Shown here: piece by piece, positions 51,833-64,000 of the stretch | Layout of the letters: every line of letters starts with the position of its first letter | Numbering within the stretch: position 1 is the stretch's first letter | DNA from: Thermohalobaculum sediminis | GTDB lineage: Bacteria > Pseudomonadota > Alphaproteobacteria > Rhodobacterales > Rhodobacteraceae | Length of the DNA: 64,000 bases | NCBI RefSeq assembly: GCF_023487995.1 | Contig: NZ_JAMFKN010000001.1 | Coordinates: 558,001 to 622,000 of the forward strand | Direction: 5' to 3' | The notes under the pieces: model-generated | Database searches by the model: none | What the model saw: only the letters and a program-made list of their open reading frames with translations | Told to the model about the DNA's origin: nothing | Program-made: the position numbers and the translations under genes

Positions 51833-53275
51833 TCAGACGAGGCCGGGGCGCTCCTCGACCAGTTCGGCATGGGCCTCGGCCTCGCGCTGGGCTGCGGCTT
51901 CGGCGGCACGGCTTCGCCGGATCCGCTTCTTCAGGAGCCGCCGGCCGATCACCATGAACAGCGCGAAGTAGACGACGTGGAACCCCAGCATGCCGAGGCC
52001 GATGGCAACCAGACCCATCGGGCCGAGCAGCGGCAGCGCGATCGCGACGAACACCGCGGTGGCGATGAGCTGGATCACCAGAAGGGTGCCCGCCTTGTTG
52101 GCCGAGAGGAACGCGGGCTCGAGCGCGAAGCCGAGAACCCGCAGGAGCGATCCCGCGATCAGCAGGTTGAACAGCCAGATCTCGTCCACCAGCTCGCGGC
52201 CGAACAGGAACTCGACGGCGAAGGGCAGCACAGCGAACAGGACAGCGGCAAAGACGGCCAGCGCCATGCCCGTCAGCGCGAGCTGCTTCTTCAAGATGCG
52301 GCGGATGCTCACCCAGTCGTCGCGCGCGGCGAGGCGCGAGAACTCCGGAAACAGCAGCGGCCCCAGGAGCCGCGTCGGCCGCGACAGCGCCGCCGCGAAC
52401 TGGCGCGCGATGTCGAAGATGGCGGCCGAGGCCGCGCCAAGCTGCGCGCCCACCACCAGGACCGTGCCGTAATTGACCACCAGCGGCGCCGCGCTGGCGA
52501 GGTTCGACATCCACAAGTAGCGCCAGACGCCGGGGAACTCGGCCGCGTCGCGCCGCCAGCGCAGCGTCAGGCGGGGCATCAGGCGGCGGCGGCGAAGCTC
52601 GGCGATCGTGGCGGTGTAGACGAACACCCCGCTCAGGACCGACGCCACGAACCAGGCAATGACGATCTCGAGCACGCCGCCGCCCATCGCCCAGGCGATA
52701 ACGACCCCAAGGAAGCGCAGCACCGCGTTCGAGGCGAATTGCAGGGCCACCACGTCCACCCGGTCGAACAGCCGCAGCACCCCGTTCGGCGTCGCATGGG
52801 TGATGAAGATGATCGACAGCATGTAGAGGGGCGCGAGCGCCGCGACCTCGGGCGGCCAGTCGAACCAGTCCTGCGCCCAGGGAATGAAGGCGATGGCACC
52901 GCCGATCGCGATGGCGAAGCTCACGAGGTCGATCGAGAGGGTAAAGCCGATCAGCCGCCGGAAACCCGGCCAGTCGGCCTTCTCCTCGAGGATCGCGCCA
53001 AAGCGCAGCACCGCCTGCCAGGACTGGAACTTGACGATTTCCGAGAACAGCCGCGCATAGCTCTGCAGCAGCAACACGACACCCAGCTCGCCCAGCCCAA
53101 AGGCGCGCGCGACCAGCACGTTGGTGCCGAGGTTCAGCAGCCCGAAGATCACCCGGCTGCCGATGATCATCCCGGCATTCTTCAGAAAGCGCCGGTAGAG
53201 CTCGCCCAGATCCACCCGTGCCCCCTCAGCTTGCCCCGTCCCGTCCGCGGCCGGGCTCGCGGCCCCGTCGCTCAT
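51833..53275 (-). CDS. Oligosaccharide flippase family (Wzx-like) membrane protein
   Basis: Predicted 480-residue polytopic inner-membrane protein with about 12-14 helices. It opens LGELYRRFLKNAGMIIGSRVIFGLLNLGTNVLVARAFGLGELG, the normal start of polysaccharide biosynthesis flippases, and later has SNLASAAPLVVNYGTVLVVGAQLGAASAAIFDIARQFA and LLGPLLFPEFSRLAARDDW. A basic cytoplasmic tail (RRLLKKRIRRSRAAEA) ends it. It should flip a lipid-linked surface glycan unit. ATG 53275 overlaps the preceding stop (ATGA), so it is translated with the GT-methyltransferase gene. Confidence 0.88.
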   Translation of the reverse strand: MSDGAASPAADGTGQAEGARVDLGELYRRFLKNAGMIIGSRVIFGLLNLGTNVLVARAFGLGELGVVLLLQSYARLFSEIVKFQSWQAVLRFGAILEEKADWPGFRRLIGFTLSIDLVSFAIAIGGAIAFIPWAQDWFDWPPEVAALAPLYMLSIIFITHATPNGVLRLFDRVDVVALQFASNAVLRFLGVVIAWAMGGGVLEIVIAWFVASVLSGVFVYTATIAELRRRRLMPRLTLRWRRDAAEFPGVWRYLWMSNLASAAPLVVNYGTVLVVGAQLGAASAAIFDIARQFAAALSRPTRLLGPLLFPEFSRLAARDDWVSIRRILKKQLALTGMALAVFAAVLFAVLPFAVEFLFGRELVDEIWLFNLLIAGSLLRVLGFALEPAFLSANKAGTLLVIQLIATAVFVAIALPLLGPMGLVAIGLGMLGFHVVYFALFMVIGRRLLKKRIRRSRAAEAAAQREAEAHAELVEERPGLV

Positions 53276-54657
53276 TCCAGGGGCGAGGGACTCGACGCGT
53301 CGAAGGTCGTGCGCCGCTTGCCGAAGGTGCCCTTCTCGTCGCAGGCGAGGCGCCACTCGATGCCGGGATAGCGGCGCGCGGCCAGCGCCATCTGCGTGTG
53401 CCACCAGTAGGGCGGCTGCTGCGTCGTGTGCGCGTTGCGCCCGTCCGGCAAGATCTTCTCGGCCGGGTAGCAGGCGGCGACGATGAAGACGAAGCGCCGC
53501 GCGCGGGCGAACATCTGGTCGATCACCCAAGGGACATCGAAGCTCGCCAGATGCTCGACGACGTCGGTCGAGATCACGCCGTCGAACTGCTCGTCGGGCA
53601 GCGTGGCAAAGGGTGGGTGGCCGGGATCGTAGCAGCGCACGCGCACGCCCGGCCAGACGGACACCTGACGCCAGGCGCTGTCGTGGGGCTCGCCCTCGAT
53701 GCGCGAATATTCCTTGCCCTTGCCCGCGCCATAGTCGAGCAGCGTCTCCGCGCCGGTCTTGCGGACCAACTCGGCGACGCTGTCGACATGCTTGCCGAGG
53801 CGGTGGCCGGCAAAGGTCTCGGGCGTCTCGTGCATCTGCTGGTAGAGCGCGACGAGCGCCGAGAACTCGCGGCTCGGGTGGTCGGCAGTGAACATCAGGT
53901 ATCCCGCCGCGTCCGCCGCCTTCTCCATGTCGTGCCACAGGTAGCCCAGCGCGTTCTCGCCATAGCGCAGCATCTCGGGGAAGGGCTTCCAGGGCTGGGT
54001 GTGCAGCGTGGTGTAGTGCAGGCACTTGATCTGCGGCACCGGATGCTCGCCGTCGCGCGAGTTCCAGACGCCGGGCAGTTCGCCGTAGAGGCCGTTCTCG
54101 GACATCACGCCCTTGGAATGGGCATGCCCCTTGCCGGCCTTCACGGCCTCGAGCGTCCAGAGCGGCGCCATCACCTCGCAGTCGATCAGCATCACCGAGT
54201 TCTCCTTCTCGGTGATCGCGAGCACGCCCTTGCCCTGCATGTCGAGGTCGAACATCTCGGCCGGATCGGCAAGGTAGATCTGATCGACATCGTTGTAGAT
54301 CGCCCGGCCCGTGTTCCCGGCAAGGTGCGGGATTGCGTAGCGGTAGTTGGTGAAGCCGGTCTTCCAGCCCTCGCGCGGGATGCCGTCGAGGTCCGACATC
54401 AGCGTGATCTCGTAGGCGCGCGCGGGGTCGCGGTTCTGCATCACCGACCAGATGAAGACGCGGGTGCCGCGATACTGCCGCGGCTCGGTGCCCAGGAAGA
54501 TGCGCACGGGGGGCTTGGGCGACGGCTGGTGGCCGGGGACGGGGTCGAGGCGGATCACCTCGGGCGTCGCGTTGCTTCCCACCGGACGGTGCGGGTCGCG
54601 GTCCAGCCAGAACTGCGGCTGACGGTGATACCAGTGGGTCTTGTAGGGATTTGCCAT
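53272..54657 (-). CDS. Fused glycosyltransferase (GT8-like) and SAM methyltransferase
   Basis: Predicted 461-residue bifunctional protein. Residues about 50-250 form a glycosyltransferase fold: VRIFLGTEPRQYRGTRVFIWSV, YEITLMSDLDG, and NDVDQIYLADP with the metal-binding DVD (123-125). Residues about 285-450 form a class I methyltransferase: LLDYGAGKGKEYSRI (306-320, motif I), VRCYDPGHP and FDGVISTDVVEHL, then a YWWHTQMALAARRYPG end. A hexose or similar sugar could be transferred and then O-methylated. The start ATG 54657 has GAGAGGG upstream. It overlaps the flippase gene, and lies 110 bp after the sialyltransferase-like gene. Confidence 0.82.
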   Translation of the reverse strand: MANPYKTHWYHRQPQFWLDRDPHRPVGSNATPEVIRLDPVPGHQPSPKPPVRIFLGTEPRQYRGTRVFIWSVMQNRDPARAYEITLMSDLDGIPREGWKTGFTNYRYAIPHLAGNTGRAIYNDVDQIYLADPAEMFDLDMQGKGVLAITEKENSVMLIDCEVMAPLWTLEAVKAGKGHAHSKGVMSENGLYGELPGVWNSRDGEHPVPQIKCLHYTTLHTQPWKPFPEMLRYGENALGYLWHDMEKAADAAGYLMFTADHPSREFSALVALYQQMHETPETFAGHRLGKHVDSVAELVRKTGAETLLDYGAGKGKEYSRIEGEPHDSAWRQVSVWPGVRVRCYDPGHPPFATLPDEQFDGVISTDVVEHLASFDVPWVIDQMFARARRFVFIVAACYPAEKILPDGRNAHTTQQPPYWWHTQMALAARRYPGIEWRLACDEKGTFGKRRTTFDASSPSPLE

Positions 54658-54767: not shown

Positions 54768-56036
54768 TCAGGCAGGGGCCGCGCATGCCTCGATCCCGAC
54801 CAGCCGGAAGCGCGCCCCCGGAACGCCGCGGGCCAGGTCGGCGAAGGCCGGGCTCAAGGTCGCGATCTCGCCCTCGTAAGACGCAAGGCAGCCGCGGATG
54901 AAGGCCACATCGGTCTCGTGATCGTGGCTCGGGGTATAGGCGTTCTCGGCCGCGCCGCCGCCCGGATAGGCGCCCGAGGGGTGGCTGAACATGTCCATGC
55001 CGGCGATCACGATCCGCCGCGGGCGCAGCGCCACCGCGGCGGCGATCATGTAGGCCCCCGTGGTGGGCCGCAGCGGCCCCTGGACGGCGGGCAGCACGGG
55101 GCCGGCGATCTCCTCGACCACGGCATAGGTGATGGGCCCGTGCCAGAACTCGACCAGCCGGGCGGCGAGCAGCGCGCGTTCCTTGCGCGGGGTGGCGACG
55201 CCCAGCGGGATCCGGCCAGCCGCGCGCATCGAGCGCTTGACGCCCGCGAAGATCATGTCCGGCCGGGCAAGGAACCCGCGCGCCTTCCACTGGTGGTTCA
55301 CCCGGAACAACGCATCGCGCGGCAGTGCCGCCAGCGCGGGATCCTCGCTGGTCGGCCCGTTGCCGAGGCAGAGGATCGTCCCCGGTCGGCCCAGCCGCTC
55401 GGCCAGCGCCCCCGCCGTCTCGATCCGCGCGCAGAACCGCCCCAGAAGGCGCCGCATCCCGCGCGTCGCGAGGCCCCGTTGCAGCCGCCCGGCCAGCGCG
55501 TCGAGGAGCGGCCCCTGCCCGCGCTCGATCCCGGCCGAGCGCACGAAATGCCGGGCGAGCTCATCGAGATCCGCATTGGCCCTTGGCATCGCCTCGGCCG
55601 CCGTCGCGGACAGCGCCACCACCTCGCCCGAGCCCTGCGCCAGGCCCGCGGGATCGACCGCGAAGACCGGCAGGCCTCGCCTGCGCGCACCCGCGACGAG
55701 ACGGCGGAGCGATGCCGGCAGGGTCCCCGGCGCCCCGGCCACGACCATCGCGCGCGCCCTCAACCCGGCCAGAGCCGCGCGCACGGGGACCATGGGCGGG
55801 ATGCGCGGCACGCGCGTGAGCAGCCGCGGCAGCGTGCCTGCCGCCGGCAGCGCCACCGCGAGCGCCGCGTCCGGCAGCGCCGCGACGATGTCCAGCCGAT
55901 AGGCCCCGCCGGCCAGCCGCGCGAGCAGGCCACCCGCCGCCCTCGCCGCAGCCGCGTCCGGCAGCACGACGACCAGCGCTTCCTCGCCCGGCTTCGGGCC
56001 GCCCGCCAGCCGCCGCAGGATCGCCTTCAGCGCCAT
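54768..56036 (-). CDS. Sialyltransferase-like (GT29-type) glycosyltransferase with unrecognised N-terminal domain
   Basis: Predicted 422-residue protein. Its C-terminal half has a sialylmotif-L-like segment TILCLGNGPTSEDP followed by RDALFRVNHQWKARG at about 220-250, and a sialylmotif-S-like segment PTTGAYMIAAAVALRPRRIV with GMDMF at about 323-350, then SHPSGAYPGGGAAENAY, which is how bacterial GT29-type proteins look. The N-terminal 200 residues are Ala/Leu/Arg-rich and read like a Rossmann half (ARAMVVAGAPGTLP, GLPVFAVDPAGL), of no recognised family. The donor may be CMP-sialic acid or a CMP-keto-sugar; no CMP-sialate synthase is in the window. It overlaps the next gene (CDP-glycerol type) by 10 bp. 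Confidence 0.65.
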   Translation of the reverse strand: MALKAILRRLAGGPKPGEEALVVVLPDAAAARAAGGLLARLAGGAYRLDIVAALPDAALAVALPAAGTLPRLLTRVPRIPPMVPVRAALAGLRARAMVVAGAPGTLPASLRRLVAGARRRGLPVFAVDPAGLAQGSGEVVALSATAAEAMPRANADLDELARHFVRSAGIERGQGPLLDALAGRLQRGLATRGMRRLLGRFCARIETAGALAERLGRPGTILCLGNGPTSEDPALAALPRDALFRVNHQWKARGFLARPDMIFAGVKRSMRAAGRIPLGVATPRKERALLAARLVEFWHGPITYAVVEEIAGPVLPAVQGPLRPTTGAYMIAAAVALRPRRIVIAGMDMFSHPSGAYPGGGAAENAYTPSHDHETDVAFIRGCLASYEGEIATLSPAFADLARGVPGARFRLVGIEACAAPA

Positions 56037-57193
56037 TCCGGCCCCAGCCCCCCGGTCTCGAGGAACTCAGCAATCGCCCGCGCGCCGCGCGCCGAGGCGG
56101 GCTCGGGCTCGCGCAGGAAGGCGTGATCGCGCGCCGCTTCCTGCGCCGGGCGGAACGCCGTCTCGAACCGCGCGCGGGCCTCGGCAAGCGCGGGGCCCAG
56201 ATCGGCCGCCCGCTCGACCACCGGGCCGAAGCGCCACGAGCGGAAGGCGGGATTGCCCTGCCAGTCGAAGCCGTGCGCGTTGAGGAACACGCAGGGACGC
56301 GGCCAGTTGATGAACTCGTAGATCTGGCTCGACAGGTCGCCCAGATAGATATCCGCGGCCATCAGATAGGTGAGATCGACCGATGCCCGGCTGCCCAGGT
56401 CGATGAGCATCCGCGGCCCGCCGCGATAGCGCCGCGGCAGCCGCGCGCCACGGCTCAGCGCGCGCTTGAACAGCAGCACATGCGGCGCGAAGATCAGATT
56501 GTAGTCGTCTGATTGCGCGAAGAAATCCAGAATATCGGTTCCGAACTTCCGCCACGAGGTCGCGGCCGGTGTCTGGGTCGGGTTGTAGAGCACCACGGGC
56601 CGGTCGTCGGCGAACAGGCGCGGGCGGCCCGCCCCCATCTCGCCAATCTCGAATTTCGTATATCCGGCAACAGCATAAAGCGTGTCCTTGAACCTGCCCA
56701 GCGCGTTCAGCTCCTCGGCGATCCGGCGACCCTGCAGCAGCACCATGTCGAAGCGCTCGATGCGCGGGTCGAACATGCCGACAGTGCTGTTGTAGCCATC
56801 CCCCGCGCCATGCCCGGTGAAGATGAGCTTGACATGCGAAAGCCTTGAATCCTCGTGCAATCCAAGACTCGTCAGCTCCGGCACGATCAGCGCATCGAAC
56901 CCGGCGAACAGCCCGACATTCGCCCGTTGCACCGCGAGCTTGCGGGTGAATGCCACGTGCCGCGCGATGGGGTCGATCGCCTCGGCCCAGAGCGGCGCGC
57001 GGATGCGCTCGATGCGCGCGGCATGGCCGGGATAGCGCGCGCCGATCTCGGCCGCGAACTCGGCCTCGGCGCGGGTCGAGCACAGGATGCGCACCCGCCA
57101 GTCGGGCCTCAGGCGCGACAGCGCGAAGCCGTAGGGCACGACATGCGGCACCTGGTGCGGCTCGTAATGGTTGAGGAGAACCCCGATCTGCAT
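56027..57193 (-). CDS. CDP-glycerol glycerophosphotransferase-like glycan polymerase
   Basis: Predicted 388-residue cytoplasmic GT-B-like protein. It starts MQIGVLLNHYEPHQVPHVVPYG and has LIVPELTSLGLHEDSRLSHVKLIFTGHGAGDGYNS, VVLYNPTQTPAATSWRKFG and a C-terminal VDLTYLMAADIYLGDLSSQIYEF region, the conserved Asp/Ser-Ser of Glyphos_transf enzymes. These enzymes transfer glycerol- or ribitol-phosphate, or act as capsule polymerases. With its neighbours (sialyltransferase-like, GT-methyltransferase, flippase) it forms a surface glycan operon. It is divergent from the acyl-AMP ligase gene (57420). Confidence 0.75.
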   Translation of the reverse strand: MQIGVLLNHYEPHQVPHVVPYGFALSRLRPDWRVRILCSTRAEAEFAAEIGARYPGHAARIERIRAPLWAEAIDPIARHVAFTRKLAVQRANVGLFAGFDALIVPELTSLGLHEDSRLSHVKLIFTGHGAGDGYNSTVGMFDPRIERFDMVLLQGRRIAEELNALGRFKDTLYAVAGYTKFEIGEMGAGRPRLFADDRPVVLYNPTQTPAATSWRKFGTDILDFFAQSDDYNLIFAPHVLLFKRALSRGARLPRRYRGGPRMLIDLGSRASVDLTYLMAADIYLGDLSSQIYEFINWPRPCVFLNAHGFDWQGNPAFRSWRFGPVVERAADLGPALAEARARFETAFRPAQEAARDHAFLREPEPASARGARAIAEFLETGGLGPEWR

Positions 57194-57419: not shown

Positions 57420-59141
57420 ATGAAGGCAGTGGCACGGCAGATCGGAGACGGTCCGACGCATCGGCGCGGGGATTTCCCCACGCTGACGGCCGCGCTCGAC
57501 TACGCCGCGCTGAGCGTGGGCAGCATGCGCTTCCACGGGCCGCGCGGCGAGCTGGTCGAGGATCTGGCCTATGCGAGGCTTGCGCGCGAGGCGCGCGAGG
57601 CGGGCGGGCGGCTGCTCGGCCTCGGGCTCGAGCCCGGCGACCGCGTCGGCCTGATCGCCGAGACCGACGCCGACTTCATGCGCGCGTTCATGGGCTGCCT
57701 CTATGCCGGCCTCGTCCCGGCGCCGATGCCGCTGCCGGCGGCCTTCGGCTCGCGCGAGGCCTATGCCGAGCAGATCCGCCGGATCGGCGCGGTCGCGGCG
57801 GTGCGCGCCGTGCTCACGCCCGAGGTGATCCGCGACTGGGTGGCCGAGGCCTTCGCCGATGCCGGGCTGGTGCATGCCGGAACGCTTGGCGAGATCGGCC
57901 GGGCCGCCGAAGCGCTGCCCGAGGCGGAGCCAGATCTGGGCGCTACGGCCTACCTGCAGTTCTCGTCCGGCACGACCAGCCTGCCCAAGGGCATCGCCGT
58001 CAGCCACCGGGCGATGATGGCGAACATCCGCGCCATGGCCGAGCATGGCCTGGGCATCGGACCGGACGACCGCGGCGTGAGCTGGCTGCCGCTCTACCAC
58101 GACATGGGTCTCGTCGGCTGCATGTTCCTGCCGGTCGCCACGCAGATGCCGATCAGCTACTACGCGACGCGCGACTTCGTGCGCCGTCCCGGATTGTGGC
58201 TCAAGCTGATCTCGGACACTCGGGCGACGCTCTCCTACGCACCGTCCTTCGGCTACGACCTCGCGGCGCGGCGCGCGAAGATCGAGGGCCTGGACCTCTC
58301 GTCGTGGCGCATCGCCGGGATCGGCGGCGACATGATCAAGACCGGCACGCTCGCCGCCTTCGCCAATGCCTTCGCGCCGGCCGGGTTCGACGCGCGCGCC
58401 TTCCTGCCCAGCTATGGCATGGCCGAGGCGACGCTTGGCCTGACCTTCGCCCCGCTGGGTCAGGGCTTCCGTACGGTCAGCGTCGATCTCGCCGCCCTCG
58501 ATCGGGGCGAGGTGGTGCCCGCCGATCCGGGCAGCCCCGGCGCGCGCAGCTTCGCCGTCTGCGGCCCCATCCTGCCGGGCCACGAGATCATGCTGGCCGA
58601 CGCCGGCGGCGCGCCGCTGCCGCCGGACCGGGTCGGGCGCATCCTTGCCCGCGGCCCCAGCCTCATGACCGGCTATTTCGGCGACGCGGACGCCACGCGC
58701 CTCGCCCTGTCGCCGGACGGGTGGCTCGACACCGGCGATCTGGGCTTCATGGATGCGGGCGAACTGGTCGTGACCGGCCGGGCCAAGGACCTGATCATCA
58801 TCAACGGCCGCAACATCTGGCCGCAGGACATCGAGTGGGCGATCGAGAGCGGCACGGACGGCATCCGCTCGGGGGGCGTCGCGGCCTTCGGCATTGCCAC
58901 CTCGGACGGCAACGGTGGACTGGCCGAGGAGGCCGTGATCGTCATCGGCGAATGCCGCGTGGCGGGCGAGGAAGGCCGCGCCGCGCTGCGCGACGAAATC
59001 CACGCGCTGGTCCGCGAGCGCATCGGCATCGAGGTCGCCGTGGTCCTGACCGGCACGGGCGCGCTGCCGCGCACCTCGTCGGGCAAGCTCAGTCGCGCCC
59101 GCGCGCGCGAGATGTTCCTCACGGGCGTCTTCGGCGCGTGA
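57420..59141 (+). CDS. Fatty-acyl-AMP ligase / acyl-ACP synthetase (sphingolipid cluster)
   Basis: Predicted 573-residue AMP-forming enzyme. A3 motif YLQFSSGTTSLPKG (178-191), VSWLPLYHDMGLVG (A4-like), SYGMAEATLGLTFAPLG (A5), LDTGDLGFMDAGELVVTGRAKDLIIINGRNIWPQDIEW (A7-A8), and C-terminal TSSGKLSRARAREMFL (A10 lysine). The HDMGLVG start of the middle section is typical of FAALs, which load ACP rather than CoA. In Caulobacter the counterpart (AasR) charges the dedicated ACP of sphingolipid synthesis. ATG 57420 is preferred by family length; an in-frame ATG at 57282 would add 46 non-conserved residues. It overlaps the next gene (GTGA). Confidence 0.88.
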   Translation: MKAVARQIGDGPTHRRGDFPTLTAALDYAALSVGSMRFHGPRGELVEDLAYARLAREAREAGGRLLGLGLEPGDRVGLIAETDADFMRAFMGCLYAGLVPAPMPLPAAFGSREAYAEQIRRIGAVAAVRAVLTPEVIRDWVAEAFADAGLVHAGTLGEIGRAAEALPEAEPDLGATAYLQFSSGTTSLPKGIAVSHRAMMANIRAMAEHGLGIGPDDRGVSWLPLYHDMGLVGCMFLPVATQMPISYYATRDFVRRPGLWLKLISDTRATLSYAPSFGYDLAARRAKIEGLDLSSWRIAGIGGDMIKTGTLAAFANAFAPAGFDARAFLPSYGMAEATLGLTFAPLGQGFRTVSVDLAALDRGEVVPADPGSPGARSFAVCGPILPGHEIMLADAGGAPLPPDRVGRILARGPSLMTGYFGDADATRLALSPDGWLDTGDLGFMDAGELVVTGRAKDLIIINGRNIWPQDIEWAIESGTDGIRSGGVAAFGIATSDGNGGLAEEAVIVIGECRVAGEEGRAALRDEIHALVRERIGIEVAVVLTGTGALPRTSSGKLSRARAREMFLTGVFGA

Positions 59142-60112
59142 GCGCGCCCGCCCAGCACGGCACGGCCACGCGCGGCGTTGCCGCCGTGACCGGAGCGACC
59201 GGGTTCCTTGGACCGCACGTCCTGAGCGCGCTCGCCGGGCGCGGCTGGCGGCTGCGCATGCTGGCCCGGCGCGCACCCGCGATCGAGGCCGGGCCCGAGC
59301 CGGTCGAGGTTGTTCCCGGCGACCTTGCCGACCCCGCGATGCTGCGCCGGCTGGTCGAGGGCGCGGACGCGATCATCCACCTTGCTGGGACCGTCCGGGC
59401 GCGCCGCCCCGCCGATTTCGATGCTGCCAATACCGAAGGGACCGCGCGGCTGGCGGAGACCTGGCGGCAGGTGGCACCCGGGGCGCATTTCGTGCTGATC
59501 TCGTCCATGGCGGCGCGCGAGCCGCACCTCTCGCCCTATGCCGCCTCGAAGCGGGCGGGCGAGGCGCGCCTCGCGGCGATCGCGGGCGAGGCGGGCGGCT
59601 ACACCATCCTGCGCCCCGCCGCGGTCTATGGCCCAGGCGACCGCGAGACGCTGGCCGTGTTCCGCGCCGCCGACATGGCGGTCCAGCCGTTGATGAACGG
59701 CCCCGCGGCCCGCCTCTGCCTGATCCACGCCGCCGATGTCGGCGCGGCGATCGCCGCCGCCGCCGCCTCCCCTCCCGGGGGCGCCGTGTTCGAACTGAGC
59801 GACGCGCGCCACGAGGGCTACGGCTGGGCCGAGATCGCGGCCGTGGCGGCCGCGGCACTGGGCCGTACTGCGCGCCCGTTGCGCGTCCCGCCGGCCGTGC
59901 TCGCCGCACTTGGCCTCGCGGGCGATGCGGCGACCGCGCTCGGGCTCGGCACGGGCATGCTGACCAGCGCAAAACGGCGCGAGATGCAGCATCCCGACTG
60001 GTCCTCGCGCCCAGCCGCGCAGCCGCCGGCAGACCTCTGGCGCCCGGTCGTCCCGCTCGCCGAGGGCTTCCGCCAGACCGTTTCATGGTATAGGGCGCAT
60101 GGCTGGCTGTGA
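59138..60112 (+). CDS. NAD-dependent epimerase/dehydratase-type reductase (putative ketosphinganine/ceramide reductase, CerR-like)
   Basis: Predicted 324-residue extended SDR. Glycine motif VTGATGFLGPHVLSAL (18-33), LAGTVRARRPADFDAANTEGT, and the catalytic YAASK motif (PYAASKRAGEARL). The C-terminal part is a typical atypical-SDR substrate domain with RPAAVYGPGDRETL. In Caulobacter, CerR between the ACP and acyl-ACP synthetase genes reduces the 3-keto group during ceramide synthesis; the position here, overlapping the acyl-AMP ligase and two genes from the ACP and SPT, suits this role. A GTG start at 59138 is chosen for the 4-bp overlap. Confidence 0.8.
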   Translation: MSAPAQHGTATRGVAAVTGATGFLGPHVLSALAGRGWRLRMLARRAPAIEAGPEPVEVVPGDLADPAMLRRLVEGADAIIHLAGTVRARRPADFDAANTEGTARLAETWRQVAPGAHFVLISSMAAREPHLSPYAASKRAGEARLAAIAGEAGGYTILRPAAVYGPGDRETLAVFRAADMAVQPLMNGPAARLCLIHAADVGAAIAAAAASPPGGAVFELSDARHEGYGWAEIAAVAAAALGRTARPLRVPPAVLAALGLAGDAATALGLGTGMLTSAKRREMQHPDWSSRPAAQPPADLWRPVVPLAEGFRQTVSWYRAHGWL

Positions 60113-60230
60113 GTGCCGCGCGCCGTCGGCGCCGCCCTCGGATTGCGTCATCGCCGCATGATCACGCGCTTCATGTCAATTCGCGAACAAACCGGACGCC
60201 TTTTGTGAAGTATCGCGTGGAGTTTGTGAC

Positions 60231-60258
60231 TTGAGCGTCGTTCCGCGGTAACTATTCT
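60231..60258 (+). promoter_or_regulatory. Candidate sigma-70 promoter before the nucleotidyltransferase gene
   Basis: TTGAGC (60231-60236), 16-base spacer, TATTCT (60253-60258), 31 bp before the ATG at 60290, in a 177-bp gap of lower GC than its surroundings. Suggests that the nucleotidyltransferase-ACP-SPT part has its own promoter. Prediction by eye only. Confidence 0.35.
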
Positions 60259-60289
60259 GTCGTGAAATCGGTGGGAGATCGGCTTCTCC

Positions 60290-61078
60290 ATGACAAATGC
60301 TGTGATCTTGAGCGCCGGGCAAGGCAAGCGTCTCGCCCCGCTTACGGATATGCGTCCCAAATGCCTGGTGAAGGTCGGCGGGCAGCCGGTCCTCTACTGG
60401 CAGCTTCGGGCGCTTGCCGCGGCGGGGATCGAGGACGTGACGATCGTCACCGGCTTCGGCGCCGAGATGGTCGAGACGGCGGTCCGGACCATGGACCTGC
60501 CGCGCCTCCCGGAATGCCTCTACAACCCGTTCTACGCGGTCGCGGACAACATCGGCTCGTGCTGGATGGCGCGCGAGCGGTTTGGCAGCGACACCGTGCT
60601 GCTGAACGGCGATACGGTCATCGACCCGCGCATCCTGCGCCGCGTGCTGGCGGATGCCGAAGCCCCGATCACGGTCACCATCGACCAGAAGCCGGGGTAT
60701 GACGACGACGACATGAAGATCCGGCGCGACGGCCGCCGCCTCACCGCGATCGGAAAGACGCTGAGCGCGCCGGTCGACGGCGAGTCGATCGGCCTCCTTC
60801 GCTTTCTCGGCGATGGCGGCGAGCGCTTCGTCGCGGCGATGCGCGCGGTGCTGGCGGATCAGGCCGCGCTCAAGCGCTGGTATCTCTCGATCATCGACCA
60901 GATCGCCCAGACCGGGGCTGTCGGCGTCGTCGAGATCGCAGGGTTGCCCTGGACCGAGATCGACTTTCCCCGCGACCTCCCGATCGCCGAGAGCCGCGTC
61001 ACCCATTTCGACTGGAGCGGCGCGCAGACCGGCACCGGGCTCGCGGCCAGCATCGGCGCGCCCCAGGGGGGCGCCTGA
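60290..61078 (+). CDS. NTP-transferase domain protein (sugar/alcohol-phosphate nucleotidyltransferase)
   Basis: Predicted 262-residue nucleotidyltransferase. N-terminal AVILSAGQGKRLAPLTDMRPKCLVKVGG (4-31) is the nucleotide-binding signature (GxGxRL...PKxL). YNPFYAVADNIGSCWMARERF, LLNGDTVIDP and YDDDDMKIRR follow; LPWTEIDFPRDLPIAES resembles LicC/choline-phosphate cytidylyltransferase endings, where EID carries the metal ligand. It probably activates a head-group precursor as a CDP- or NDP-derivative for the sphingolipid or surface glycan made by neighbouring genes. Caulobacter sphingolipid head-group loci also contain an NTP-transferase gene. Confidence 0.8.
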   Translation: MTNAVILSAGQGKRLAPLTDMRPKCLVKVGGQPVLYWQLRALAAAGIEDVTIVTGFGAEMVETAVRTMDLPRLPECLYNPFYAVADNIGSCWMARERFGSDTVLLNGDTVIDPRILRRVLADAEAPITVTIDQKPGYDDDDMKIRRDGRRLTAIGKTLSAPVDGESIGLLRFLGDGGERFVAAMRAVLADQAALKRWYLSIIDQIAQTGAVGVVEIAGLPWTEIDFPRDLPIAESRVTHFDWSGAQTGTGLAASIGAPQGGA

Positions 61079-61227
61079 TCTGGACAGCAGGCTCGCGGCA
61101 GGGTATCGGCGGCGCTTCGCCACGAGCAGGATTCCCGGCCGGGGCGGCCGGTGAACAGGTTGCACGCGCGCGGCGAGATGGAATGAACACGCTGCCATCG
61201 CGGCGCACGAGCAGGAAGACGACGAAC

Positions 61228-61476
61228 ATGGCCACGGCCGACGACATCGAGGCGCGCATCCTCGCCCTGCTCACCGCCAAGGTGAAGCAGGACGTTGCGG
61301 TCACGCGCGACACGAACATCGTGGCGGATACGGGGCTCGACTCGGTCAGCGTGATGGACTTCGTGCTGGAGCTCGAGGACGAGTTCGACATCAACATCCC
61401 GCTGGACCGGATCGCCGAGGTCAAGACCGTCGCCGATCTGGCCGCCGCGGTGCAGGATCTGGGCGGATCGAGCTGA
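61228..61476 (+). CDS. Acyl carrier protein of the sphingolipid locus
   Basis: Predicted 82-residue ACP. Phosphopantetheine attachment Ser39 lies in ADTGLDSVSVMDF, and the acidic second helix LELEDEFDINIP and closing VKTVADLAAAVQDL are standard. Start ATG 61228 follows GGAAGAC; an upstream in-frame ATG (61183) would add 15 basic residues and is not ACP-like. Next to serine palmitoyltransferase this matches the Caulobacter AcpR layout, in which the acyl group is supplied to SPT on a dedicated ACP. Confidence 0.93.
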   Translation: MATADDIEARILALLTAKVKQDVAVTRDTNIVADTGLDSVSVMDFVLELEDEFDINIPLDRIAEVKTVADLAAAVQDLGGSS

Positions 61477-61525
61477 GGACGGCATAACCCCGGGCAGCGA
61501 CCCGAAGAGGGGAAGGAACGAGACG

Positions 61526-62839
61526 ATGGGCATCAAGGACAGGATCGCCGCGGTCGAGGCGACGTACGGGCGGCTGAGGGCGCTTGGCCGCGACCCCAGC
61601 AGGCTGGAGTTCCAGAATGTCTGGTCGCCGACCGAGGCGACGCTGGAAGGCCGCCCGATGATGCTCTTCGGGACCAACAACTATCTCGGGATGACCTTCG
61701 ACCCCGAGGTGCTGGAGGCCGGAACCGCCGCCACCCGCGCGCTCGGCTCCGGCACCACCGGCTCGCGCATCGCCAATGGCAGCTATGGCGGCCACAAGGC
61801 GCTCGAGGCCGAGATCACGCGCTTCTACGCCAAGCAGCACTGCATCGTGTTCTCGACGGGCTATGTCGCCAATGTCGGCATGATCACGGCGCTGGGCGGC
61901 AAGGACGACGTGCTGCTGATCGACGCCGACAGCCACGCCTCGATCTATGACGGCTGCAAGATGGCGGATGCCGAGACGATCCGCTTCCGCCACAACGGCC
62001 CCGAGGACCTCGCCAGGAAGCTCAAGCGCCTGGAGGGGCATCCCGGCGACAAGATCATCATCGTCGAGGGCATCTACTCGATGCTGGGCGACACTGCGCC
62101 GCTCGCCGAGTTCGCCGCCGTCAAGCGCGAGGCGGGCGAAGGCGTCTACCTCATGGTCGACGAGGCCCATTCGCTGGGCGTGCTGGGCGAGTCGGGCCGC
62201 GGCCAGTGCCAGGCCACGCATGTCGAGGACGACTGCGACTTCATCGTCGGCACCTTCTCGAAGAGCGTGGGCACGATCGGCGGTTATTGCGTCTCGAACC
62301 TCGCGGGCTTCGACGCGATCCGCTCGTTCTGCCGGCCCTACATGTTCACCGCGTCGATGACGCCGGGCACCGTCTCGACCGCGCGAGCCGCCTTCCGGCG
62401 AATGGCCGAGCGGCCCGAGCTGCGGGCGCGGCTCTGGTCGAACTGCTCGGCGCTCTATCGCGGCCTCGGCGATCTCGGCTTCGAGACCGGGCCCGAAGTG
62501 AGCCCCGTCGTCGCCGTCAAGCTCCGGGCGCCCGAGATCGCGGTGGCGCTGTGGAACAGGCTGATCGACGAGGGCGTCTACACCAACATCGCGATCCCGC
62601 CGGCCACCCCGAACGCGCTGTCGCTGCTGCGCGTGTCGGTCTCGGCCGCGCACACCGAGACGCAGATCGAGCGGGCGCTGAACATCTTCGCGTCGGTCGG
62701 CGCCGAACTCGGCATCATCGAGCCCGGCGCAGGCCGCGCCGAGCGGTTCCACGTGATCACCGGAGGCGCCGCTGCCAAAGCAGGCGGGCGAACACGACCG
62801 GCGCCGCAAGGGCCGGCCAGCGCCGCTGCCACGACCTGA
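61526..62839 (+). CDS. spt: Serine palmitoyltransferase (alpha-oxoamine synthase)
   Basis: Predicted 437-residue PLP enzyme that condenses serine with an acyl thioester to 3-ketosphinganine, the first step of sphingolipid synthesis. Landmarks are MLFGTNNYLGMTFDPEVLEAG, GTTGSRIANGSYGGHKALEAEI, FSTGYVANVGMI, LIDADSHASIYDG, EGIYSMLGDTAPL, VDEAHSLGVLG and FSKSVGTIGG with the Schiff-base Lys246. These fit bacterial SPT (Sphingomonas/Caulobacter) better than AONS/KBL, which share the fold; the neighbouring ACP and FAAL add support. The tail after residue 400 (GGRTRPAPQGPASAA) is a low-complexity extension that overlaps the next gene's end by 83 bp. Confidence 0.87.
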   Translation: MGIKDRIAAVEATYGRLRALGRDPSRLEFQNVWSPTEATLEGRPMMLFGTNNYLGMTFDPEVLEAGTAATRALGSGTTGSRIANGSYGGHKALEAEITRFYAKQHCIVFSTGYVANVGMITALGGKDDVLLIDADSHASIYDGCKMADAETIRFRHNGPEDLARKLKRLEGHPGDKIIIVEGIYSMLGDTAPLAEFAAVKREAGEGVYLMVDEAHSLGVLGESGRGQCQATHVEDDCDFIVGTFSKSVGTIGGYCVSNLAGFDAIRSFCRPYMFTASMTPGTVSTARAAFRRMAERPELRARLWSNCSALYRGLGDLGFETGPEVSPVVAVKLRAPEIAVALWNRLIDEGVYTNIAIPPATPNALSLLRVSVSAAHTETQIERALNIFASVGAELGIIEPGAGRAERFHVITGGAAAKAGGRTRPAPQGPASAAATT

Positions 62840-63668
62840 GTTCGACGGGGCGGCCAGTGTGCCGCTCGACCTTCGAGAGCGCGTAGGCGAGGCCGCCGCG
62901 GAATGTCGCGGCGGCCTTCGTCAGTCGCGCGGCATTGAGAAGCTTGCCGACCCTCCGCCGCCGCGCCCACATCCGGGCCGCCCGCGCGCGCGCCGCTGCA
63001 TCCGGCGCCGGGCTGGGCGCGATGAGCGCGGCGTGGAGCCCCCCGAAATGGGCCGGGTGCGCGTCGAGAATGGCGCCCGCGCGCCCCGCCCCCTCGACCC
63101 GCAACTCGGCGCCATAGGTCCGGGCATAGAGCGCGCCCCAGGCGCCGCGCCAGTCCGCCCCGTCGGGCGCGACATGCGCGGCCCACCAGGCCGCCGCCTC
63201 CGCCGCCGCCGCCAGCGCGTCGAGCACGGCCGCGCGCGCCGCGGCGTCGCTTGCATGGGCCAGCACCACCGGCTGCGAGAACCGCGCCCATAGAGTCGTG
63301 TCCCAGCTTTCCGCCCGCATCCGCGCGCGGAAGGCGTCGAGCCGCATCACCGCCACCTTGGCGTGAATCGCACCCGCCTGCCCCGCAAGCTCGACATGAT
63401 AGACGTTCGGCGGCATCAGCCGCCCCGCCAGCGCCGCAAGCCCCGGCCCGGACCAGTCGGCGTCGCGCGCCGTGAGGCAATAGAAGTCGAGCAGCCCTGC
63501 GGCCCCCACGTCGCGCAGCATGTTGCCGTAGAACAGGACCGCGAGCACGCCCGGCCGCGTGGCCAGATGCGCGGCCATCGCCGCAGCGTCGCCCGAAAGC
63601 GGCCGGTCCGCCGCCGCCTCGATCAGCGCGCCAACCTCCGGGCAGCGGGCCTGCCCGGCAGTGCTCAC
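62757..63668 (-). CDS. Unrecognised protein of the sphingolipid locus, possible nucleotidyltransferase-fold (Tam41-like)
   Basis: Predicted 303-residue soluble protein. The GTG start at 63668 overlaps the preceding oxygenase stop (GTGA), making a two-gene minus-strand unit. A GNMLRDVGAAGLLDFYCL segment (about 48-65) resembles the GSxxR...D-F-x of nucleotidyltransferases, and VYHVELAGQAGAIHAKVAVM with DTTLWARFSQPVVLA resembles Tam41-type CDP-diacylglycerol synthases. This family assignment is tentative. The C-terminal half is Ala/Arg-rich (RRRRVGKLLNAARLTKAAATFRGG). Position opposite SPT suggests a head-group role. Its 3' end overlaps the SPT tail by 83 bp on the other strand, an unusual convergent overlap. 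Confidence 0.6.
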   Translation of the reverse strand: MSTAGQARCPEVGALIEAAADRPLSGDAAAMAAHLATRPGVLAVLFYGNMLRDVGAAGLLDFYCLTARDADWSGPGLAALAGRLMPPNVYHVELAGQAGAIHAKVAVMRLDAFRARMRAESWDTTLWARFSQPVVLAHASDAAARAAVLDALAAAAEAAAWWAAHVAPDGADWRGAWGALYARTYGAELRVEGAGRAGAILDAHPAHFGGLHAALIAPSPAPDAAARARAARMWARRRRVGKLLNAARLTKAAATFRGGLAYALSKVERHTGRPVELRSWQRRWPALAAPVVFARLLWQRRLR

Positions 63669-64000
63669 TTGCGCTCGCTCATGCTTTCGAGGATCTGGTC
63701 GGCGCGCCGGGTCGCGGCCTCGAAGCGGTCCTCGAAATCCTCGATGTTCTTCTTCGGCTCCTTGTAGAAGGCCGTGAACTTCATCGCCCGGATGAAGAGC
63801 CCGGTCAGCAGCCGCGCCGGCCAGCGCATCGGCCGGTCGAAGTCGAACAGCAGGATCACCCGCTCCTCGTCGGTCTCGTTCCAGACCTCGTGTTCGTAGG
63901 TGTCGTCGAGCACGAAGACGCGGCCCGCCTCCCAGGCCCGGATCTCGTCGCCGACGCGGATGCGGCACTTCTCGCGCTCGGCGGGGATGATCAGGCCCAG
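63665..64000 (-). CDS. Aspartyl/asparaginyl beta-hydroxylase (LpxO-like) family oxygenase, 5' part cut by window edge
   Basis: C-terminal part of a 2-oxoglutarate oxygenase, 111 residues visible. It shows CRIRVGDEIRAWEAGRVFVLDDTYEHEVWNET and ERVILLFDFDRP, the Asp_Arg_Hydrox signature with the iron-ligand His in YEHEVWN and the 2OG-binding Arg in ERVILL. The first His-x-Asp and the start are beyond base 64000. LpxO-like members hydroxylate fatty acyl chains of lipids, so in this locus 2-hydroxylation of the ceramide acyl chain is a reasonable inference. Its stop overlaps the next gene's start (GTGA). Confidence 0.85.
   Translation of the reverse strand: MGLIIPAEREKCRIRVGDEIRAWEAGRVFVLDDTYEHEVWNETDEERVILLFDFDRPMRWPARLLTGLFIRAMKFTAFYKEPKKNIEDFEDRFEAATRRADQILESMSERK

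Follow-up and report, generated by a model that had tools for sequence, protein, structure and literature searches.

The right end of the window, the 64,000-nucleotide stretch of Thermohalobaculum sediminis analysed here (contig NZ_JAMFKN010000001.1, C11:558001-622000, in a genome of 4.31 Mb in 43 contigs), together with the readable DNA that flanks it, very probably represents a nearly complete phosphosphingolipid locus of the ceramide mono- and diphosphoglycerate (CPG and CPG2) type. Judged by sequence comparison, it would be orthologous to and largely syntenic with the CC_1152-CC_1168 cluster of Caulobacter crescentus, the closest known system (PMC11324152, PMC12275187). In PMC11324152, CC_1168-CC_1152 are described as 17 genes for ceramide, CPG and CPG2; the pathway genetics and the activities of CpgB and CpgD were established by others in Caulobacter. 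Counterparts of 16 of the 17 genes are found in the host region, and these genes make the host a predicted producer of the lipids.

The comparison was made with the unannotated locus L076 of Caulobacter vibrioides DSM 9893, whose open reading frames (ORFs) were given CC numbers according to gene order and protein family; protein matches above 60 bits were recorded over 56 kb. In one other search of the analysis, ORFs were retained when complete and longer than 75% of the query. The ceramide core set, aasR, cerR, acpR, spt and bCerS, is complete and syntenic with Caulobacter (50.8%, 45%, 37.6%, 55.1% and 50.4% identity, respectively). Head-group and transport genes, not recognised as such in a first-pass annotation of the window, belong to the locus as well. 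All six of CpgA (51.7%), CpgB (38.6%), CpgC (42.4%), CpgD (50.2%), CC_1153 (43.4%) and CC_1158 (39.5%) have counterparts, at 38.6-51.7% identity, and the transport proteins LptF2 (38.3%) and LptG2 (34.7%) have theirs in the locus. The remaining counterparts are those of CC_1157 (59%), CC_1167 (36%) and CC_1166 (29%). Synteny of the region with named loci from Caulobacter, Azospirillaceae and Nevskia excludes a chance arrangement. The presumed LptC2 ORF tells against completeness: it had no match above 60 bits in the 56 kb compared, the rest of the genome not having been searched.

The first-pass annotation had described five plus-strand genes followed by two coupled minus-strand genes, and the order and strands of the named genes at the right window end are as it gave them. 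On the plus strand lie the genes for AasR, an acyl-ACP synthetase that belongs to the fatty acyl-AMP ligases (57420..59141; NF006624, 709 bits, cut-off 600), the epimerase/SDR-type ceramide reductase CerR (59138..60112; PF01370), the CTP:phosphoglycerate cytidylyltransferase CpgD (60290..61078), the dedicated acyl carrier protein AcpR (61228..61476; PF00550) and serine palmitoyltransferase (SPT; 61526..62839). The ligase and SPT score above curated cut-offs, and the domains of the other proteins were found. The likeness of the AasR-CerR-AcpR-SPT content to Caulobacter, also proposed there, is supported by synteny and by the identities to L076. On the minus strand, the frames of cpgC (62757..63668) and of an OlsC/LpxO-like dioxygenase (63665..64489, of which 63665..64000 is in the window) overlap by 4 bp. 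The "possible nucleotidyltransferase" of the annotation is CpgC, whose model has a nucleotidyltransferase-type fold, and its "LpxO-like oxygenase" is an Asp_Arg_Hydrox protein of the LpxO/OlsC type (PF05118). The N-acyltransferase bCerS, reported as absent, is indeed outside the window, and it is not missing: the search for a GNAT-type enzyme beyond position 64000 led to a 378-residue GNAT-domain protein at 70480-71616 on the plus strand (L006:14480-15616; window coordinates are L006 coordinates plus 56000), some 6.5 kb beyond the end of the window. It is identified as bCerS by its 50.4% identity to the Caulobacter counterpart and its syntenic position in C. vibrioides DSM 9893.

The SPT protein scores 618 bits with the SPT equivalog NF047599 (cut-off 500), a beta-proteobacterial-type model and the only one whose cut-off it passes; the bioF model gives 304 bits, below its cut-off of 426. 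It is very improbable that this alpha-oxoamine synthase makes a non-sphingoid product, such as a capnine-type sulfonolipid, a biotin precursor or an alpha-hydroxyketone signal, with the neighbouring genes serving that product. Alpha-oxoamine synthases belong to a single fold family, and each shows some match to the protein; its best PDB matches, however, are SPTs (E 1.6e-127), far ahead of KBL (best E 9e-56), cysteate acyltransferase (E 8.4e-50) and AONS, and counterparts of bCerS and of the ceramide kinase lie near its gene. The protein is also separate in the tree from the three related paralogues that the host genome carries, so that the grouping with AONS or KBL raised in the first-pass annotation is not seen. 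By equivalog cut-offs, PDB ranking and tree, assignment as AONS, KBL or cysteate acyltransferase was rejected.

SPT is rare in the family of the host, in line with the first-pass annotation, which called such loci not typical of Rhodobacterales. At a threshold of E<=1e-90, which more divergent SPTs could escape, SPT is found in only 7 of 394 sampled genomes of the family, and in four of the five genomes of the host genus, the host included. Of 92 SPT rows, 13 were left out of the tree (L041, which duplicates L030, and 12 rows from a Reyranella-like group). The rows of the host, G001, G002, G003, G058, G145, G362, L039 and Neomegalonema L040 form one clade, its members read from one tree and its support (100/98) taken from a second with another outgroup; the SPTs of G175 and G311 are of another kind and fall outside it. 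In the rpoB tree (26 of 28 genomes, since rpoB was not matched in the other two), the first branch is G058, followed by G145 together with the host genus (89/79) and next by Albimonas, all before the other family members sampled; Albimonas pacifica, of the order Rhodobacterales, belongs to the same family as the host. The rpoB gene lies on the same contig as the locus. The G+C content of the locus is 0.724, compared with 0.698 for window positions 1-50000 and 0.705 downstream, a value inside the spread shown by 15-kb windows (0.672-0.732).

The first-pass annotation had left a choice between a widened range and transfer. The first part stands, since early-branching Rhodobacterales carry the locus; neither the SPT and rpoB trees nor the G+C content speak for recent transfer. 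Acquisition from another alphaproteobacterial order, as opposed to inheritance within early Rhodobacterales, would agree with the rarity of SPT in the family, with its absence from the congener G004 and with the separate SPT kind of G175 and G311. We consider it unlikely, given the single clade of nine Rhodobacterales-type rows, the early position of their hosts in the rpoB tree and the unexceptional G+C content. Old presence with later loss is therefore the favoured history, even if the SPT rows do not branch internally as rpoB does.

The gene set would permit the following route. AasR would load a fatty acid onto AcpR, and SPT would join the AcpR-bound acyl chain to serine. Addition of the N-acyl chain by bCerS and reduction of the ketone by CerR, the order of which is disputed in the literature, would yield ceramide, to be phosphorylated by CpgB. 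The Tam41-like CpgC may then use CTP to turn ceramide-1-phosphate into CDP-ceramide, to which a transferase would add glycerate to form CPG. No enzyme is assigned to this last step, a shared extra CDP-alcohol phosphotransferase not having been seen in five genomes, and this counts against the reading of the locus as a whole. In Caulobacter, CPG has m/z values of about 704 and 720. CpgD would make CDP-glycerate, from which CpgA would add the second phosphoglycerate, the counterparts of CC_1153 and CC_1158 also taking part. An acyl chain of the lipid may be hydroxylated by the OlsC-like dioxygenase, and LptF2/LptG2 and a CC_1166-type flippase would, as proposed in the literature, carry it to the outer membrane. 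For CpgD, formation of CDP-glycerate and the key residues R16, K26 and D112 are described in PMC12275187, and an effect of Met147 and Lys161 on enantiomer preference in a May 2026 preprint (PMC13228409). All five residues of Caulobacter CpgD are kept in the host, as R14, K24, D108, M142 and K156; the CpgD crystal structures cited in that preprint were not among the PDB matches of host CpgD.

At E<=0.001, neither Pfam nor NCBIfam has a match for the 303-residue protein encoded by 62757-63668, and a Pfam search with 9 CpgC members gave nothing relevant. The protein is the counterpart of CC_1161/CpgC (42.4% identity), which is next to spt in Caulobacter too. Because of this synteny, the reading that CpgC is missing from the host, whose sole PF01148 CDP-diacylglycerol (CDP-DAG) synthase is on another contig, was rejected. 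In PMC11324152, Olea-Ozuna et al. proposed, from an InterPro domain, that CC_1161 might provide an NDP-activated ceramide; the preprint PMC13228409 has CpgC converting ceramide-1-phosphate to CPG and calls the mechanism unidentified. Y40, G41, D54 and K93 (L076 numbering) are invariant in CpgC. AlphaFold models were made of host CpgC (9-sequence alignment, mean pLDDT 85.3) and Caulobacter CpgC (33 sequences, mean pLDDT 94.7). In Foldseek searches of the PDB, the host model has Tam41 CDP-DAG synthases at ranks 1-3 (E 5.6e-5 to 3.0e-4); for the Caulobacter model they fill ranks 1-5 (E 3.5e-7 to 6.9e-6, including the bacterial Tam41 7ecd). Since the top fold matches are CDP-DAG synthases, and since a kinase step would precede a CTP-dependent activation, the models and the kinase association suggest that CpgC makes CDP-ceramide from ceramide-1-phosphate and CTP. 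The fold comparison supports the activated-ceramide idea described in PMC11324152 and is not its origin; the term "CDP-ceramide" was not found in the openly licensed papers searched.

The gene overlapping cpgC encodes a protein that, taken in full, matches PF05118 with 174.8 bits (cut-off 22.6, E 1.5e-51), and it is the sole PF05118 gene found in the host genome. It has no counterpart in the Caulobacter locus compared (L076). In Caulobacter, N-acyl chain hydroxylation is ascribed to the DesA-type CC_0202, and the sphingolipid hydroxyl group has been linked to polymyxin sensitivity (both PMC11324152); the host genome reaches at best 24% identity to the best Caulobacter FA_desaturase match, which may not be CC_0202. 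Close orthologues of the host dioxygenase (E 1.4e-129 or better, at least 70% identity) occur in six of the seven SPT-positive family genomes (G000, G001, G058, G145, G175 and G311, the exception being G362) and in none of the 387 SPT-negative ones; in nine of the 394 genomes the only relatives are distant ones (31-42% identity, E 9.3e-33 to 1.7e-23). This co-occurrence (Fisher p 1.4e-12, kinship ignored) suggests that the gene encodes a sphingolipid hydroxylase. In G002 and L039 the gene neighbours cpgC close to the end of a contig, and in G311 it is found upstream of aasR; on the G175 contig that carries it no other gene of the locus set was seen. The second SPT kind of G175 and G311 (L035 and L036; 47-50% identity) is accompanied by its own cpgC, and the G311 hydroxylase is 73% identical to the host enzyme.

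Both assignments have rivals. CpgC might activate another phosphate or acid, for instance glycerate or phosphoglycerate, or adenylylate a substrate, so that no CDP-ceramide is made, and we regard this as a substantial possibility. Its fold is common to many nucleotidyltransferases, and a number of results speak against a Tam41-type role. The likeness of the models to Tam41 is a fold-level match, with 10-14% identity, an rmsd of 5.3-8.4 A and a TM-score of about 0.5. Aminoglycoside nucleotidyltransferases match the Caulobacter model as well, with E from 1.7e-5 and TM 0.30-0.36. PF09139 (Tam41) has no match in the host genome even at E<=10, and CpgC sequence profiles (9 and 34 members) did not find Tam41 in the PDB. 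The one hit that PF09139 gives among 398 Pseudomonadota genomes stays below the cut-off (21 bits, cut-off 24). On the other side, this hit is a homologue of CpgC whose gene has that of a DAGK-type kinase as its neighbour; in a phmmer search with this homologue 6ig2 was listed without significance (E 1.6), several CpgC-invariant positions being aligned. Tam41 ranks first for both models at TM 0.48-0.56, compared with about 0.3 for the aminoglycoside enzymes, which follow it from E 1.1e-3 in the host model. Among the 48 of 80 named loci that are at least 18 kb long, 26 carry cpgC as well as the ceramide kinase gene cpgB and 22 carry neither, so that cpgC never occurs there without the kinase; and the genetics described in PMC11324152 place the CpgC step after ceramide-1-phosphate.

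For the dioxygenase, the rival is an action on lipid A or ornithine lipids, its place in the locus being incidental; this is possible, though we find it rather doubtful. OlsC and LpxO are its closest models, and LpxC is present in the host genome, which makes lipid A probable there. However, neither cut-off is passed (OlsC NF052565, 221.6 bits, cut-off 450; LpxO NF033391, 111.6 bits, cut-off 500), the close orthologues track SPT, and the gene sits between cpgC and cpgB in G000, G001, G145 and G058. Assignment as a sphingolipid hydroxylase is in turn weakened by Albimonas, which has the locus without the hydroxylase, and by the genomes behind the co-occurrence, which are partly close relatives.

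The CC_1167 counterpart, encoded on the minus strand at 56027..57193 (36% identity to L076:4548-5675, E 4e-63), is a remote TagF-like protein. It reaches 18.1 bits with PF04464 (E 0.0014), below the cut-off of 22.1, and at E<=10 this model matches 13 of 18 CC_1167 family members, at best with 1.7e-4. The best PDB match of the family profile is the TagF-like polymerase Cps3D (E 2e-5), and TarL is also matched (0.0092). In the same 48 loci, the counterpart is present in 16 of 26 cpgC-positive and 1 of 22 cpgC-negative ones (Fisher p 4e-5, kinship ignored). The account in PMC11324152 judges CC_1167 probably unrelated to the pathway and gives cofitness values for its mutants of 0.57 with spt and 0.54 with CC_1159. 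Since CpgD makes CDP-glycerate, one may reasonably guess that this protein transfers phosphoglycerate in the manner of TagF. The role is weakened by N. eutropha, A. vinelandii and P. luteola, which are expected to make CPG2 and are reported in the same paper to have no CC_1167 orthologue. That all three proposals hold at once seems improbable to us: CpgC as a Tam41-type CTP:ceramide-1-phosphate cytidylyltransferase with head groups added via CDP-ceramide, hydroxylation of ceramide by a dedicated OlsC-like dioxygenase of these Rhodobacterales, and transfer of phosphoglycerate from CDP-glycerate by the TagF-like CC_1167. If true, teichoic-acid-like phosphoglycerate units would occur on a lipid of Gram-negative bacteria.

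Upstream of 57420, cluster counterparts reach as far as 51833, where the flippase-like CC_1166 counterpart is encoded on the minus strand (51833..53275, start codon picked by eye; 29% identity to L076:5672-7003, E 3.9e-38). Two minus-strand proteins between it and the CC_1167 counterpart (53272-54657 and 54768-56036) have no Pfam match at E<=0.001; their relatives are co-located upstream of the Methylopilaceae loci L074 and L083, and the former has an apparent methyltransferase motif, as judged by eye. Beyond the window end, the minus strand has genes for a lipid kinase of the DAGK type (64535 to about 65476) and, next to it, for a CDP-alcohol phosphotransferase (65458-66564), followed on the plus strand by those for a metallophosphoesterase (66671-67663), the CC_1157 counterpart (67705-68139; L006:11705-12139), two LptF/LptG-type permeases (68149-69369 and 69366-70412), bCerS and a MobA-like nucleotidyltransferase (71613-72365). 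The 144-residue CC_1157 counterpart, which has no NCBIfam match, is the best-conserved cluster protein relative to Caulobacter (59%); CC_1157 is judged probably unrelated to the pathway in PMC11324152. A second CDP-alcohol phosphotransferase-like gene, 38% identical to CpgA, is found near a CPG-type locus of genome G096 (L032:18621-19277) and is a possible candidate for the CPG-forming step. A promoter and terminator scan gave no signal above shuffled sequences.

As far as the openly licensed literature considered shows, these results add early-branching Rhodobacterales to the carriers of the CPG2-type gene set, with the ceramide genes and the known head-group genes all present. In 2020, a survey described alphaproteobacterial sphingolipids as apparently restricted to Sphingomonadales (PMC7179689), a view that later Caulobacter work has overtaken. 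The comparison makes the roles of CpgC and CC_1167 directly testable, and the locus points to a second, unrelated enzyme kind for sphingolipid hydroxylation.

Several features set the host locus apart from the Caulobacter cluster. No LptC2 is seen near it (56 kb compared), cpgD is inside the ceramide operon, and cpgC is separated from cpgB by the gene for the OlsC-like hydroxylase. The counterparts of CC_1166 and CC_1167 are encoded on the opposite strand, and two further genes separate them. Tam41 (PDB 6ig4, 6ig2 and 7ecd), the CDP-DAG synthase of mitochondria and bacteria, is the top-ranking fold match of both CpgC models, at a TM-score of about 0.5, and both enzymes would, as proposed, activate a lipid phosphate with CTP; CpgC differs in sequence (10-14% identity, PF09139 not matched by the host protein) and in its proposed lipid, ceramide-1-phosphate. 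The dioxygenase has the Asp_Arg_Hydrox domain in common with the lipid acyl 2-hydroxylases OlsC and LpxO, the OlsC model aligning to residues 25-260 of its 274, whereas it scores below both curated cut-offs and its gene context and co-occurrence point to sphingolipids. The polyol-phosphate transferases TagF and TarL (PF04464) are remotely matched, below the cut-off, in their C-terminal part by the protein of 56027-57193, for which the presumed donor is CDP-glycerate.

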